A stretch of DNA of 38,165 nt, from positions 1-38,165 of the forward strand of contig JAIDDH010000067.1 in assembly GCA_029055435.1 (NCBI GenBank), given 5' to 3'. Both the position numbers and the translations under genes were made by a program. The stretch's first letter is position 1. Each line of letters begins with the position of its first letter. This stretch comes from Acetatifactor sp. GTDB taxonomy: Bacteria > Bacillota > Clostridia > Lachnospirales > Lachnospiraceae. The notes beneath the pieces are model-generated. The model was given only the letters and a program-made list of their open reading frames with translations. It made no database searches and was not told where the DNA came from. This document shows positions 106 through 20,292 of the stretch, one piece after another.

Positions 106-136
106 ATAAATATTCGCATAAATATTTGCATAAATA
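106..136. repeat. 12-bp direct repeats upstream of the left-edge promoter, possible operator
   Basis: ATAAATATTCGC (106-117) is repeated as ATAAATATTTGC (118-129) and partly as ATAAATA (130-136). The array starts 14 nt upstream of the -35 box of the left-edge promoter. The AT-rich, partly palindromic GAATAAATATTC/TGCATAAATA pattern resembles ArgR/AhrC-type operators, but without the downstream gene this is only a suggestion. The array abuts family A repeat copy 1. Confidence 0.4.
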
Positions 137-456
137 ACAGTTCAGTCGGAGATATTGCAGATGCTATTCCAGCCGTGTCGGCAGGGGAAGGCCGGGAGAG
201 TTTAGCAGGCGGGCTGCGGGTGGGTGTTTTCTAATAGTGCGGTTGTGGAATATTGCGATTTTACGGGTCGGTTCTAAGGTGCATCCATGCACCGTAGAAC
301 CTGAAATGCGCATCCGTGCGCATTTCACCCTAGGCCCCGATCCGCACTATAAGAAAACGCACCAACCTCCGCCAGAGCCTGCTAAACCCTCCCGGTCTTC
401 TCCTGCCTCGACACCGACTGAATATAGTCCTCGTAATATCTCCGGCTGAACTGTTA
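135..456 (+). repeat. Family A cloverleaf inverted-repeat element, copy 1
   Basis: 322 bp with terminal inverted repeats (TAACAGTTCAG at 135-145, its complement ending at 456). Inner arms 192-210 and 377-395 pair over 19 positions with one mismatch. Inside are conserved boxes (TGTTTTCTAATAGTGCGG near 226-242; CCGCACTATAAGAAAACGC at 342-360), hairpin H1 (270-301, stem GGTTCTA/TAGAACC plus GGTGCAT/ATGCACC) and hairpin H2 (302-327, TGAAATGCGCA/TGCGCATTTCA), closed by GGG 265-267 and CCC 328-330. No credible gene lies inside. It is 3' of eno, beyond the eno terminator. The ends begin with TA, as expected of elements that target TA, but this is inference. Confidence 0.88.
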
Positions 457-477
457 CTTGCAATCCGGCAAAACACA

Positions 478-530
478 TTATGCGCCCCTGCGCATAAAAT
501 AAGCCGGGAAGCGGGAACTTCCTGGCTTAT
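478..530 (-). terminator. eno terminator with accessory hairpin
   Basis: Read on the minus strand, ATAAGCCAGGAAG and CTTCCCGGCTTAT form a 13-position stem with one G-T type pair (499-530), followed by TTTTATG. A second small hairpin, TTATGCGC/GCGCATAA (478-497), follows directly. It lies about 47 nt after the eno stop, between eno and family A copy 1. Confidence 0.8.
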
Positions 531-576
531 CAAAATTCTATTCTTTATAAATAGTCTGTTCTCACATATATTTAAA

Positions 577-1878
577 TCAGTTTTGCTGCACTCCAAAGGC
601 CTTCATGCCGGGGTAGACCGCGGATTTTCCCAGTTCTTCCTCGATGCGCAAAAGCTGATTGTACTTGGCCACGCGCTCGGAACGGCTGGGCGCGCCGGTC
701 TTGATCTGGCAGGTATTTAACGCCACCGCGAGGTCTGCAATGGTGGTATCCTCCGTCTCGCCGGAGCGATGGGAGCTGATGGCGGTATATCCTGCCTTGT
801 GTGCCATCTTGATGGCCTCCAGCGTCTCGGACACGGAGCCGATCTGATTTAATTTGATCAGGATAGAATTACCGCAGTGCTGCTCGATACCCTTCTCCAG
901 ACGCGTTGTGTTGGTCACAAACAAATCATCTCCCACCAGCTGCACTCGATGGCCCAGCTCCTCAGTCAGGCGTTTCCAGCCCTCCCAGTCTTCCTCATCC
1001 AGGGCATCCTCGATAGAAATGATGGGATATTTTTCCACCAGTTCCTTCCAGTGAGCTATGAGCTCGTCTGAAGTGTAAACCTTGCCTGCTTTCGGCAGTT
1101 TATACTCACCCTTCTTTCCAGTCTTCCACTCAGAAGATGCCGCATCCATGGCGATACGGAAATCCTTGCCCGGCTCATAGCCCGCCTTTTTGATTGCCTC
1201 CAGAATGGTCTCAATGGCTTCTTCGTCTGAGGAGAGTGCCGGAGCAAAGCCGCCCTCATCCCCGACGGAAGTGGCAAGTCCCCTATCCTTTAAGATTGCG
1301 GCCAGAGCGTGAAACACCTCCGCACACCACCTGAGCGCCTCACGGAAACAGCATGCGCCCACAGGCATGACCATGAACTCCTGCACATCCAGCCCGGAAG
1401 AGGGAGCATGGCATCCCCCATTGATGATATTCATCATGGGCACGGGCAGACGATTGCCGTTTACACCGCCCAGAAACCGATAGAGCGGAATATCCATGGA
1501 CTCGGCCGCGGCTCTGGCACAGGCGATAGACACCGCAAGAATGGCATTGGCTCCGAGCTTTGACTTGTCCTTTGTTCCGTCCGCCTCAATCATCGCACGG
1601 TCCACCGCATAGATATCTGAGGCATCCATGCCCCGAATGGCCTGGCAGATGACAGTGTTGATATTTTCCACCGCCTTCGTGACACCCTTTCCCAGATACC
1701 GTCCCTTGTCGCCGTCCCGAAGCTCCAGCGCCTCGAATTCTCCGGTAGACGCGCCGCTGGGAGCTGTTCCCCTGCCCACGGTTCCGTCCGTCAGATGCAC
1801 CTGCGCCTCCACGGTGGGATTCCCTCTGGAATCCAAAATCTCTCTTCCGACAACTTTTTCAATCTCCAAATAATACAT
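577..1878 (-). CDS. eno: Enolase (phosphopyruvate hydratase)
   Basis: Interconverts 2-phosphoglycerate and phosphoenolpyruvate in glycolysis, in the cytoplasm. The 433-residue product matches the family length (about 430). Visible signatures are SGASTG (41-46), the catalytic Glu of GDEGG (E208), metal ligands D244, E290 and D317, the catalytic Lys of ILIKLNQIG (K342), and [10 protein letters not shown] (368-377). The start is the ATG at 1878, ten bases after AAGGAG; an upstream in-frame ATG at 1911 has no such site. The loop [16 protein letters not shown] (153-168) looks one residue longer than the usual NGGSHADNNVDIQEF form. The gene is monocistronic, with its own terminator downstream. I found no convincing promoter in 1879-1997. 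Confidence 0.97.
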
Positions 1879-18178: not shown

Positions 18179-19825
18179 ATCGTCTTCCCGCTCGGCCGCG
18201 ATGATTGCAAACGCGATATTCGTGGCGTGATCGGACACACGCTCCAGACCGGATACGATGTCGGAGAAGATCATGCCCGCCTCCGGCGTACACTCGCCCC
18301 GGGTCAGACGCTCCACATGCCGCATCTGCAGCTCCCGCTCCTTCTCGTCCACACGATCCTCCAGTTCCACCACTTCCTGCATCTTGCTGTCGTCGCTGTG
18401 GGCAAACATGGCGATGGCATCCTGAATAATCTTGTTTACCATGTCCAGCATCTCTCCCAGCTCGCGCTGAGCTTCCTTGCTGATGCTGACGCCGGTCTCC
18501 CGGCGCTGCTTTGCCGCGTCAGCCACATTCTCCGCATGGTCGCCGATGCGCTCGATATCGTTCACCACATGAAACAACGCGCCCAGACTCTTCAAGTCCT
18601 CGATGGGCAGCGTCAATTGATTGATCTTCACCAGATAATCCGTGATGGCATTGTTCAGGAAGTTGATATTTTTCTCCACCTCATACACTTCTGCGATATC
18701 CTCCTCATCCAGCGTGATGAGGGCATTCATTGCGCGGTTGAGATTTTCGTTTGCCAGATCGGCCATACGCTCCAGCTCCCTGATTACCCCTACCACAGCG
18801 GTGGCCGGATTAAAGACTACCTTGTCTCCAATATATTTGAGCTGATAGCTCTCACGGTAATTGATCTTCTTGTCCTCACCGGGCACGCATCGGCTGGCAA
18901 GCTTGACGATCAGCCCCGAGAACGGGAAGAGCACAATCACCTGGAATATTTTGATGATAGTATGGGCATTTGCCACAAATCGCCCATTGTCAGAGGATAT
19001 AGCCTGAATCATATTGATCACAGGCTCCATGGCCACCATCAAAATCACATAAATCAGAGCAGTGCCGATGACATTAAACCAAAAATGAATCAGAGCCGCA
19101 CGCTTTGCGTCCTTTTTGCCGGACAGAGATGCCAGCAGCGCCGTAGTACAGGCCCCGATATTACAGCCCAGAATAATATACAGACAAATTGGAAGCGTGA
19201 GCAAATCCTGATTGGCCATCAAAAGCACAATGCTGACCGTCACCGATGAACTCTGTATAATGGAAGTGAGCAGCACGCCCGTGAGCGTCGCCAGAAAAGG
19301 ATTGGTGAGCGAACCCAAAAAGTCCACTACCTCGGGCACATTCCGCATCCCCGCCATGGCCCCGGACATGGTCTGCAAGCCGAGGAACAAGATGCCGAAA
19401 CCGATGACGATCTCCGCCGCCTGCTTCACATTCTGTCTGCCGCAGAACATGGCAATCAGAACGCCAGCCAGCAGAATCACCGGCGCAATCTCCGAGAGAT
19501 TAAAAGATACCAACTGAGATGTGATGGTCGTACCGATGTTTGCGCCGAAAATCACCCCCGCGGCCTGATACAGATTCATAAGACCCGCATTCACAAAGCT
19601 GACTACCATGGCAGTGCAGGCTGATGAGGACTGAATGATACCGGTAAACACAATACCTATGATCATTCCCATAAAGCGGTTAGTGGTAAATATCTCCAGA
19701 ATACGGCGCAGCTTTGCACCCGCCACCTTCTCGATGGACTCGCTCATCAAACTCATGCCAAAGAGAAAAAGTCCCAATCCGCCGGCCATTGACAACATCA
19801 TACTCAATAATTCTTCTGCATTCAT
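18164..19825 (-). CDS. Na/Pi cotransporter family protein with PhoU-like domain
   Basis: 553 residues. The N-terminal half (to about 310) is a multi-span Na/Pi cotransporter (PNaS family) with the two inverted QSSS motifs (65-68, GIIQSSSA; 191-194, SIIQSSSV). Residues from about 335 form a soluble helical PhoU-like region (HVVNDIERIGDHAENVADAA and LERVSDHATNIAFAI). It should import phosphate with sodium, the PhoU-like part probably regulating flux. The start at 19825 has only a weak purine-rich stretch upstream. Its stop codon lies in the first unit of the 17-bp repeat array. A promoter candidate lies at 19911-19939, and family A copy 4 lies directly upstream. Confidence 0.94.
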   Translation of the reverse strand: MNAEELLSMMLSMAGGLGLFLFGMSLMSESIEKVAGAKLRRILEIFTTNRFMGMIIGIVFTGIIQSSSACTAMVVSFVNAGLMNLYQAAGVIFGANIGTTITSQLVSFNLSEIAPVILLAGVLIAMFCGRQNVKQAAEIVIGFGILFLGLQTMSGAMAGMRNVPEVVDFLGSLTNPFLATLTGVLLTSIIQSSSVTVSIVLLMANQDLLTLPICLYIILGCNIGACTTALLASLSGKKDAKRAALIHFWFNVIGTALIYVILMVAMEPVINMIQAISSDNGRFVANAHTIIKIFQVIVLFPFSGLIVKLASRCVPGEDKKINYRESYQLKYIGDKVVFNPATAVVGVIRELERMADLANENLNRAMNALITLDEEDIAEVYEVEKNINFLNNAITDYLVKINQLTLPIEDLKSLGALFHVVNDIERIGDHAENVADAAKQRRETGVSISKEAQRELGEMLDMVNKIIQDAIAMFAHSDDSKMQEVVELEDRVDEKERELQMRHVERLTRGECTPEAGMIFSDIVSGLERVSDHATNIAFAIIAAEREDDMAVE

Positions 19826-19910
19826 CCCGTTCTTCTTTCACCTCATTGGGCTTTTGGTATCTTATGTCCCCGAATCTGTTTTCTATAATGCTCCAAAATA
19901 CTCCGATTAT

Positions 19911-19939
19911 ATTTTACAGGAAAAAGCGAAAAGTTACAA
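19911..19939 (-). promoter_or_regulatory. Candidate promoter of the Na/Pi cotransporter gene
   Basis: Minus-strand TTGTAA (19934-19939), 17 nt, TAAAAT (19911-19916), about 85 nt upstream of the start. It lies between the gene and family A copy 4. Confidence 0.5.
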
Positions 19940-19969
19940 TAGATATTTTGTCCTTCAAGTCTTTTGGTG

Positions 19970-20292
19970 TAACGGTTCAGGTTGAAGCATTGCGATTGCT
20001 GGTTAGGCGGTGTCGGCAGAAGGGGGGAGCGGGACTGATTGGCAGGCGGTTGCAGTTGGGTGTTTTCTAATAATGCGGTTATAGCATGCTGCAATTCACG
20101 GGTCGGTTCTAAGGTGCATCCATGCACCCTAGAACCTGAAATGCGCATCCGTGCGCATTTCACCCTTGTCTTCGAACCGCACTATAAGAAAACACACCAG
20201 CCTTCACCAATGCCTGCCAATCAGTCCCGCTCCCTCTTCTGTCTCGATACCGGCTGAATGCAGCAATAGCAATATTTCAGGCCGGACTATTA
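19970..20292 (+). repeat. Family A cloverleaf inverted-repeat element, copy 4
   Basis: 323 bp, same orientation as copy 1. Terminal repeats TAACGGTTCAG (19970-19980) and, on the other strand, TAATAGTCCGGC ending at 20292. Arms 20025-20047 and 20212-20234 pair perfectly over 23 bp with a copy-specific sequence. H1 (GGTTCTA/TAGAACC plus GGTGCAT/ATGCACC) and H2 (TGAAATGCGCA/TGCGCATTTCA) lie side by side near 20105-20162, between GGG and CCC. The inner boxes TGTTTTCTAATAATGCGG and CCGCACTATAAGAAAAC are kept. The TAA at the right end is the stop codon of ribF. Confidence 0.9.

Follow-up and report, generated by a model that had tools for sequence, protein, structure and literature searches.

The small RNAs CsrB, CsrC and RsmZ sequester CsrA, and insertion sequences of the IS66 family have GTAA ends and an 8-bp target site duplication (TSD). 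The TwoAYGGAY RNA (Rfam RF01731) was described in 2010, and in the parts of that paper available to us human gut and Clostridiales stand in its table and the motif is scored as not cis-regulatory (Weinberg et al., PMC2864571). The portions of the literature on the motif at our disposal still list its function as unknown and nowhere mention transposition or describe a mobile context; a published guess is that the RNA binds CsrA. According to the available sections of a review that also treats CsrB and antagonists, the SELEX consensus of CsrA is RUACARGGAUGU, whose GGA is presented in hairpin loops (PMC7652899). The only Gram-positive CsrA antagonist named in the review text available is a protein, FliW.

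Four inverted-repeat elements in the window (the whole 38,165-nt stretch of Acetatifactor sp. DNA analysed) belong to this RNA family, all four scoring above the RF01731 gathering score of 43 bits (Table 1). The first-pass annotation had located the copies to within 1–5 nt of the alignment edges; it knew of no described family that matched, and had named a known RNA family as a finding against its proposal. RF01731 is such a family, which rules out a new one; a MIR533 match (27.6 bits against a cut-off of 80) was attributed to chance. The explanation we favour overall, with a probability of about 0.6, is a palindromic element resembling a miniature inverted-repeat transposable element (MITE) that carries a conserved TwoAYGGAY RNA, possibly a CsrA decoy.

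The Rfam model covers only the inner 168 nt of the element, which is approximately 323 nt long, palindromic and non-coding, and adds long arms, inverted ends and target duplications to the core. The core fits the model in all four copies, with the two small hairpins, H1 and H2, in copies 1, 3 and 4; copy 2, previously also credited with both, has one (a 137-nt match versus 163–164 nt). The earlier stem lengths stand for copies 3 and 4, while that of copy 2 is one pair longer than the 27 bp first given. In copy 1, for which a 19-bp stem with one mismatch had been described, the longest perfect inverted repeat is 11 bp and forms part of that stem. On either strand, the folds of all four copies are much more stable than those of dinucleotide shuffles (z from −12.7 to −21.4). 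Six mechanical ORFs (100–183 aa) overlap the copies and none matches Pfam, in agreement with the annotation that no transposase lies inside. The stop-codon end of a VanZ-family ORF (7377–7826) enters the right end of copy 2 by 17 nt, and that of a riboflavin kinase gene (20290–21204) enters the right end of copy 4 by 4 nt.

Table 1. TwoAYGGAY elements, RNA cores and arms in the window; copy edges are from the 51-copy alignment.
Feature	Position	Strand	Remarks
Copy 1, TwoAYGGAY element	134..457	-	full length; flanks agree at 5/8 (8-bp); strand from RF01731 match
RF01731 TwoAYGGAY core, copy 1	211..374	-	97.5 bits
Copy 2	7094..7393	+	eroded left end, one hairpin missing; flanks agree at 3/8
RF01731 core, copy 2, single hairpin	7177..7313	+	60.1 bits
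Left arm of copy 2, 28 bp	7147..7174	.	perfect complement of 7313–7340
Copy 3	12394..12715	+	eroded right end; flanks agree at 1/8
RF01731 core, copy 3	12476..12638	+	92.2 bits
Left arm of copy 3, 31 bp	12443..12473	.	perfect complement of 12639–12669
Copy 4	19969..20293	-	both ends recognisable; flanks agree at 2/8; unoccupied site in relatives G312 and G318
RF01731 core, copy 4	20047..20209	-	88.0 bits
Left arm of copy 4, 23 bp	20025..20047	.	perfect complement of 20212–20234

The element has inserted in intergenic DNA, duplicating 8 bp of target sequence. Its own genome holds at least 51 copies (50 RF01731 matches, of which one is truncated at a contig end, and copy 2), bounded by terminal inverted repeats (GTAACAGTTCAG...; GTAAC...GTTAC), one of which is eroded in copies 2 and 3. 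The 8-bp flanks were identical in 7 of 50 copies and agreed at 7 or more of the 8 bases in 15 of 50 (shuffles averaged 0.33, with a maximum of 3 in 2000); for the remaining lengths between 3 and 12, flanks were identical in 2, 0 or 1 copies. Taken singly, the window copies show no clear TSD (Table 1). Shorter deletion derivatives in the same genome have the termini of the element, and two of them (L054 and L057) carry exact 8-bp duplications, as read by eye. At the site of copy 4 the intergenic gap measures 500 nt here versus 119 nt in G312 and 68 nt in G318; the element was not matched in 20 regions from relatives at this locus, not all of which span the site.

Being short, non-coding, intergenic, patchily distributed and present in high copy number, with inverted ends and a TSD, these elements resemble MITEs, from which they differ in having no known parent transposase and a core more conserved than the ends. 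The first-pass annotation had also named an insertion-sequence-derived MITE as an alternative; this agrees in kind, although a parent insertion sequence was not found. The GTAAC ends and 8-bp TSD recall the IS66 family, whereas this genome contains no IS66 transposase domain: the DDE domain PF03050 gave no match, with 4 of 14 controls matching, and IS66 parentage was rejected.

A full-length element with a transposase and the same ends, which the first-pass annotation had suggested seeking, was recognised neither in this genome nor in relatives or GTDB contigs. A model of the terminus gave at least 114 matches in the genome (150 of 1320 candidates scored). Twenty regions outside the RF01731 copies, a number that leaves out about ten weak matches, comprised short derivatives, contig-end pieces, one copy lacking a hairpin and decayed single ends. 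None of ten ORFs next to five single ends or within one locus (L039) matched a Pfam transposase, and three of the ten fell in no family at all. At L039, a full copy, a gene of the Rpn family and a deletion derivative lie within a 1.7-kb inverted pair. Its 375-aa ORF resembles the Rpn-family "recombination-promoting nuclease/putative transposase" (NCBIfam, 3.2e-5, under the cut-off), a likeness that the names of its relatives share. We read this as chance, because the ORF has a full copy on one side and a derivative on the other, no TSD is present in the outer flanks, and none of the other copies examined in this genome has the ORF as a neighbour. The terminus matched nothing at 0.01 in 11 related genomes, an empty answer that is weak for lack of a positive control; in G304, two weak matches were found (E 0.04 and 0.3). 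As an exact pattern it was absent from the GTDB contigs, among which this genome is possibly not included. Plasmids and phages yielded no match to copy 4, and viral contigs gave four matches to one 16-base box and none to a core pattern.

The proposal that pairing is kept while sequence drifts, in stems that are copy-specific and self-paired, holds for the family. Across 49 of the 51 copies (an N-masked copy and another truncated at a contig end were excluded), 97.9% of cells are paired, and 31 of 69 pairs changed on both sides. None of 500 shuffles reached the observed covariation; partners slid out of register were 37–44% paired, a comparison that favours the structure since it was derived from the same alignment. 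The first-pass annotation had offered either a folded RNA or single-strand DNA as the object of selection; our counts of mismatches point to both, by part, with DNA-like arms and an RNA-like H2. Pairing in the outer arms is symmetrical, as in DNA palindromes, with 209 G·U and 218 A·C mispairs. Another count gave more A·C than G·U (216 versus 122), the excess coming from poorly paired outer offsets; offsets 5–24 held 31 of each. The same balance appeared in set E, the 113 copies among the matches listed for an exact H1 pattern (arms: 43 G·U versus 47 A·C). Among these matches, H2 had 13 G·U and no A·C (cells from 12 loci), although part of its 5′ side is dictated by the selection pattern, and the contrast with the arms is significant (Fisher 1.9e-4) for helices that were chosen for comparison after the fact. 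The intermediate helix, with 18 G·U and 6 A·C among the matches listed, implies that the RNA signal extends beyond H2; the box helix had 5 and 7. Five loop-closing pairs pooled were uninformative (one of each). Because set E was picked by its H1, the H1 conservation and G·U counts of that set are meaningless and were left out.

Complementarity of the arms could also be maintained in the absence of selection, through template switching at the replication fork (hairpin-templated repair). The equal G·U and A·C counts accord with this, as do the double changes in orthologous copies, 9 seen versus 3.0 expected. However, in the same 28 comparisons 92 arm pairs had changed on one side, and only 5 of the 9 double changes were still Watson–Crick, at an intergenic divergence of 7.8% (117 pairs non-canonical in both copies and 38 gapped pairs were set aside). 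Correction, if any, would thus be slow; the fast form of the arm-to-arm correction suggested earlier is unsupported, and we consider repair an unlikely explanation of the arms.

The two core boxes remain conserved after insertion while the ends decay. Over 17 orthologous groups, 12 of 894 box positions differed (1.3%) versus 790 of 10124 in intergenic DNA, a rate of change roughly six times lower in the boxes. Constraint is limited to the boxes: the unfixed core as a whole differed at 6.4% of positions, comparable to the 6.3% of coding DNA, and the H2 region, at 9.8%, outpaced intergenic DNA. Copies with eroded ends still have the core and stems, and end decay was accompanied by no fall in core identity (rho 0.15, p 0.29) and no trend in arm mismatches (rho −0.06, p 0.71). 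Beyond this genome, matches occurred in 8 of the 31 further genomes from the genus and in 45 of 299 genomes of the family, own included (in that survey a per-genome count of 9 means at least 9). The ends differ between lineages, and in other genomes this core is flanked by unrelated ends.

These observations bear on a purely selfish MITE, in which hairpins and boxes would serve transposition only, as a DNA hairpin or for transposase binding, and the RNA product would be irrelevant. Such an element accounts for the TSDs, the random orientation in this genome, the balanced mispairs of the arms, the lineage-specific ends and the rapid change of H2, and for signs of a recent burst in G304, where 9 of 30 matches share one score. 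It is at odds with the decay of the very ends that a transposase needs while the core stays, with boxes constrained in vertically inherited copies, with the G·U-only H2 and with one core flanked by unrelated ends, and we judge it rather unlikely.

A cis-acting mRNA element, serving as terminator, processing site or 3′-end stabiliser of the adjoining gene, is very improbable: the copies are intergenic, several of them 1–16 nt from a stop codon, fold very stably and include terminator-like sites (two overlapping inside copy 2, 7301–7317, minus strand; one of 16 pairs overlapping the right end of copy 3, 12712–12749, minus strand; the scan ends at 20000 and long element stems are invisible to it), but sense orientation is not favoured in this genome (18 versus 15 antisense) and is disfavoured in set E (14 versus 39 loci among the matches listed), and the motif is scored otherwise in the available text of Weinberg et al. 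(PMC2864571). In set E, the RNA strand thus opposes co-directional neighbours, and read-through would not yield the RNA. A candidate internal promoter in copy 2 (TTGGCG-18-TATAGT) was discarded, its hexamer lying within a box that differs in other genomes.

The hairpin loops of the core present GGA in 47 of 50 H1 and 49 of 50 H2 in this genome, and in 70 and 82 of 100 cores, respectively, over all sets. Over these sets the loops fit GGA (often ANGGA) better than the AYGGAY of the family name. Exceptions include the H1 loop of G304 (ACGAT in 18 of 20 copies) and H2 of set E (ANGGA in 1 of 113 copies among the matches listed). Among 30 cores from other genomes, 22 H1 hairpins carry ANGGA, 17 of them with an A-T second pair giving ACANGGAUGU; the counterpart here is GCANGGAUGC. 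The genome has one csrA, adjoining fliW. Within the family, csrA was present in 44 of 45 positive versus 110 of 254 negative genomes (p 1.7e-13) and flagellin in 45 of 45 versus 111 of 254 (p 9e-15). Since all positives have flagellin, csrA and motility are inseparable; csrA without flagellin occurs in 3 of the 299 genomes and flagellin without csrA in 5. At genus level csrA is uninformative, being found in 7 of 8 positive and 19 of 23 negative genomes. The loops and the co-occurrence are consistent with predicted CsrA binding and are not specific to it. The element shares GGA hairpin loops and a csrA-bearing host with CsrB, CsrC and RsmZ, and differs in having at most two sites, predicted to bind, per element, in dispersed copies on mobile DNA, in a host that also has fliW.

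In the MITE-like explanation that we favour, the element would transpose as a short non-coding palindrome with the TwoAYGGAY RNA at its centre, mobilised by a transposase acting in trans that may be absent from the assembly or have gone unrecognised; the arms would be DNA parts of this transposing life style. A promoter of its own, or one nearby, may drive transcription of the core, which would fold into hairpins with GGA in the loop. The RNA might then bind host CsrA, the copies acting as dispersed decoys or local CsrA recruiters, and selection on the RNA would keep them. To the step from transcription through CsrA binding to retention, judged from sequence, we give a little less than an even chance. 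A broader proposal is that transposable CsrA decoys have arisen in Lachnospiraceae, with GGA-hairpin RNA on at least three sets of mobile-element ends, a dose of CsrA-binding RNA rising copy by copy and retention, through selection on the RNA, after end decay; this we put forward tentatively and hold to be doubtful. The rapid evolution of the H2 region relative to intergenic DNA led us to reduce both estimates slightly.

With arms that behave like DNA and a hairpin that behaves like RNA, the element offers a useful internal control for interpreting covariation. As the core of mobile palindromic elements, TwoAYGGAY would be an RNA family spread by transposition and partly under selection, which accounts for its poorly conserved external stem. 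If the decoy reading is true, the RNA would titrate CsrA, a global regulator of motility and carbon metabolism, and would constitute a CsrA-titrating RNA system in Gram-positive bacteria, beside the protein FliW as the named antagonist.

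The four long inverted-repeat elements reported in the first-pass annotation are real, and their edges, taken from an alignment of the copies, differ by only 1–5 nt from the coordinates first given. The paired, copy-specific stems it described were likewise borne out, with stability well above that of shuffled sequences on either strand. No described family had been recognized at that stage; covariance-model matches identify the copies as Rfam TwoAYGGAY (RF01731), with copies 1, 3, and 4 matching at the gathering threshold and copy 2 scoring 60.1 bits, which exceeds the cut-off of 43. 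The genome contains at least 51 copies: the 50 RF01731 matches listed by the genome search, of which one is truncated by a contig end, plus copy 2, which the list lacked. Contigs C28 (start), C102 (end), and C80 (end) of this genome (G000) stop inside TwoAYGGAY elements, indicating that the repeats break the assembly; more copies may therefore exist than were counted. Weinberg 2010 (PMC2864571) rated TwoAYGGAY as a probable RNA that is probably not cis-regulatory. CsrA binding was proposed from a motif match and the external stem was described as poorly conserved (PMC4333381). The RNA family itself is thus known; of the mobile setting in which its copies occur we found no description.

Coordinates of TwoAYGGAY elements and other features (G, genome; C, contig; L, sequence stretch)
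Feature	Location	Strand or description
Copy 1	window 134-457	minus
Copy 2	window 7094-7393	plus
Copy 3	window 12394-12715	plus
Copy 4	window 19969-20293	minus
Direct repeats	window 23495-23566	short, spaced; two of 23 nt
Direct repeats	window 25842-25958	short, spaced; three of 27 nt
Inverted repeat	window 31357-31411	24 bp, 7-nt loop, 83% complementary; outside TwoAYGGAY family
Divergent close pair	G000:C128:53636/54031	minus then plus
Divergent close pair	G000:C152:77818/78232	minus then plus
Divergent close pair	G008:C47	minus then plus
Divergent close pair	G008:C33	minus then plus
Divergent close pair	G037:C123	minus then plus
Divergent close pair	G208:C69	minus then plus
Same-direction close pair	G166:C36	
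Rpn-family gene	L039:1874-3001	between full copy and short derivative

In an alignment of 51 copies with their flanks, the element edges were sharp, mostly 322–325 nt apart, and GTAACAGTTCAGCCTGAAATATTGCGA read inward from either end. The flanking 8-mers were duplicated exactly in 7/50 copies and at ≥7/8 bases in 15/50 (partner-shuffle mean, 0.33); the four window copies are eroded, without clear target duplication. A sequence-only terminus model found full copies together with internally deleted derivatives of ~50–300 bp, and two deletion derivatives showed exact duplications when read by eye. RF01731 matches occurred in 8 of the 31 other genomes of the genus, and the single-contig genome of a relative, G304, had 30, nine with identical score. 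Copy 4 is flanked by genes for a riboflavin kinase/FAD synthetase and a Na/Pi cotransporter. Relatives G312 and G318 lack the element there, with 119 and 68 nt, respectively, separating the aligned genes, versus 500 in this genome. A TwoAYGGAY copy is also a transposed element. Among the matches listed, six of seven close pairs (starts 300–460 bp apart) were divergent.

The ends differed between lineages. In G304, 13 of 20 fetched copies lay inside a ~500-nt repeat with TAAATGGAAAGTTAGT ends and TA on the flanks, for which a TA duplication is plausible. From at least 119 stretches of GTDB contigs, we used 113 copies selected by the exact H1 hairpin pattern (set E); GATTCGGGTGTCAAAAGGTGC occurred at both ends, with ≤7 mismatches, in 30/113, of which nine showed a ~7-bp duplication (≥6/7 match; null 0.98, maximum 4). 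A single core is therefore combined with three or more types of ends, and for none of them did we find a transposase. The only transposase-labelled relative observed next to a copy was an Rpn-family (putative transposase/nuclease) gene in stretch L039; the outer flanks of this copy–gene–derivative unit lacked a duplication, and the proximity is probably due to chance. One stretch with the set pattern (L222) comes from a record titled Muribaculaceae, the others being titled Lachnospiraceae, Roseburia, Eubacterium, or unplaced; its label or binning may be wrong.

Pairing was maintained over 49 copies, with 260 double-changed cells versus 71 in shuffles. G·U pairs are expected to be favored if RNA is under selection. 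In the arms (the long outer stems), G·U and A·C numbered 20 and 20 in this genome, 209 and 218 in a wider set, and 43 and 47 in set E. In contrast, hairpin H2 of set E had 13 G·U and no A·C, and both hairpins in this genome together had five and one; the p values for this contrast (1.9e-4 in set E, 1.0e-4 pooled) are rough, since the sequences are related. Based on the G·U/A·C equality in the arms and the G·U excess in the hairpin, the arms act like a DNA palindrome, while the hairpin acts like an RNA of the Rfam strand. In this genome, the box stem repeatedly shows a lone U·U mismatch (CUUA opposite UUAG), which inspection by eye also found in several other genomes. Copy 2 and stretch L052 lack the same hairpin (GAAATGCGC...GCGCATTTC); slippage at the hairpin would give such a loss.

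Change after insertion was followed in orthologous copies (17 groups, 28 comparisons). In the core, the two conserved boxes changed by 1.3% (12/894), intergenic DNA by 7.8%, coding DNA by 6.3%, and the arms by 5.8%. The remainder of the core was not slow: the unfixed core as a whole changed by 6.4% and the H2 region by 9.8%, with single bins reaching 16% and one small bin 39%. Arm pairs showed 92 one-sided changes and nine on both sides, versus 3.0 expected, which represents mild compensation and not fast correction. Within this genome, neither core identity nor arm pairing depended on end decay. Because the core copies were located via the core model, the regions found by the terminus model serve as a partial control; on inspection by eye, those fetched contained deletions and single ends in decay, but none was a full-length copy whose core carried point mutations.

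The hairpin loops mostly carry GGA (H1 in 70 and H2 in 82 of 100 cores examined, all sets together), in other genomes often as ACANGGAUGU, which is the CsrA SELEX core. This genome has a single csrA adjoining fliW, plus a flaG, and its CsrA protein is alignable to solved CsrA chains. Among 299 Lachnospiraceae, csrA was present in 44/45 genomes with RF01731 matches versus 110/254 without, and flagellin in 45/45 versus 111/254; within the genus, csrA presence did not discriminate between the two groups. That TwoAYGGAY RNA binds CsrA is a hypothesis to which we give slightly less than even odds.

The copies are intergenic. Their orientation to genes is random in this genome (18 sense versus 15 antisense), and in set E the RNA strand was antisense to co-directional neighbors at 39 of 53 independent loci (81 loci in all), with genes defined as longest-ORF calls, not gene-finder calls. 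The identity of the family, described in 2010, was already known; new evidence on it comes from its mobile nature, the split between DNA and RNA, and the finding that the boxes stay constrained once a copy has inserted.
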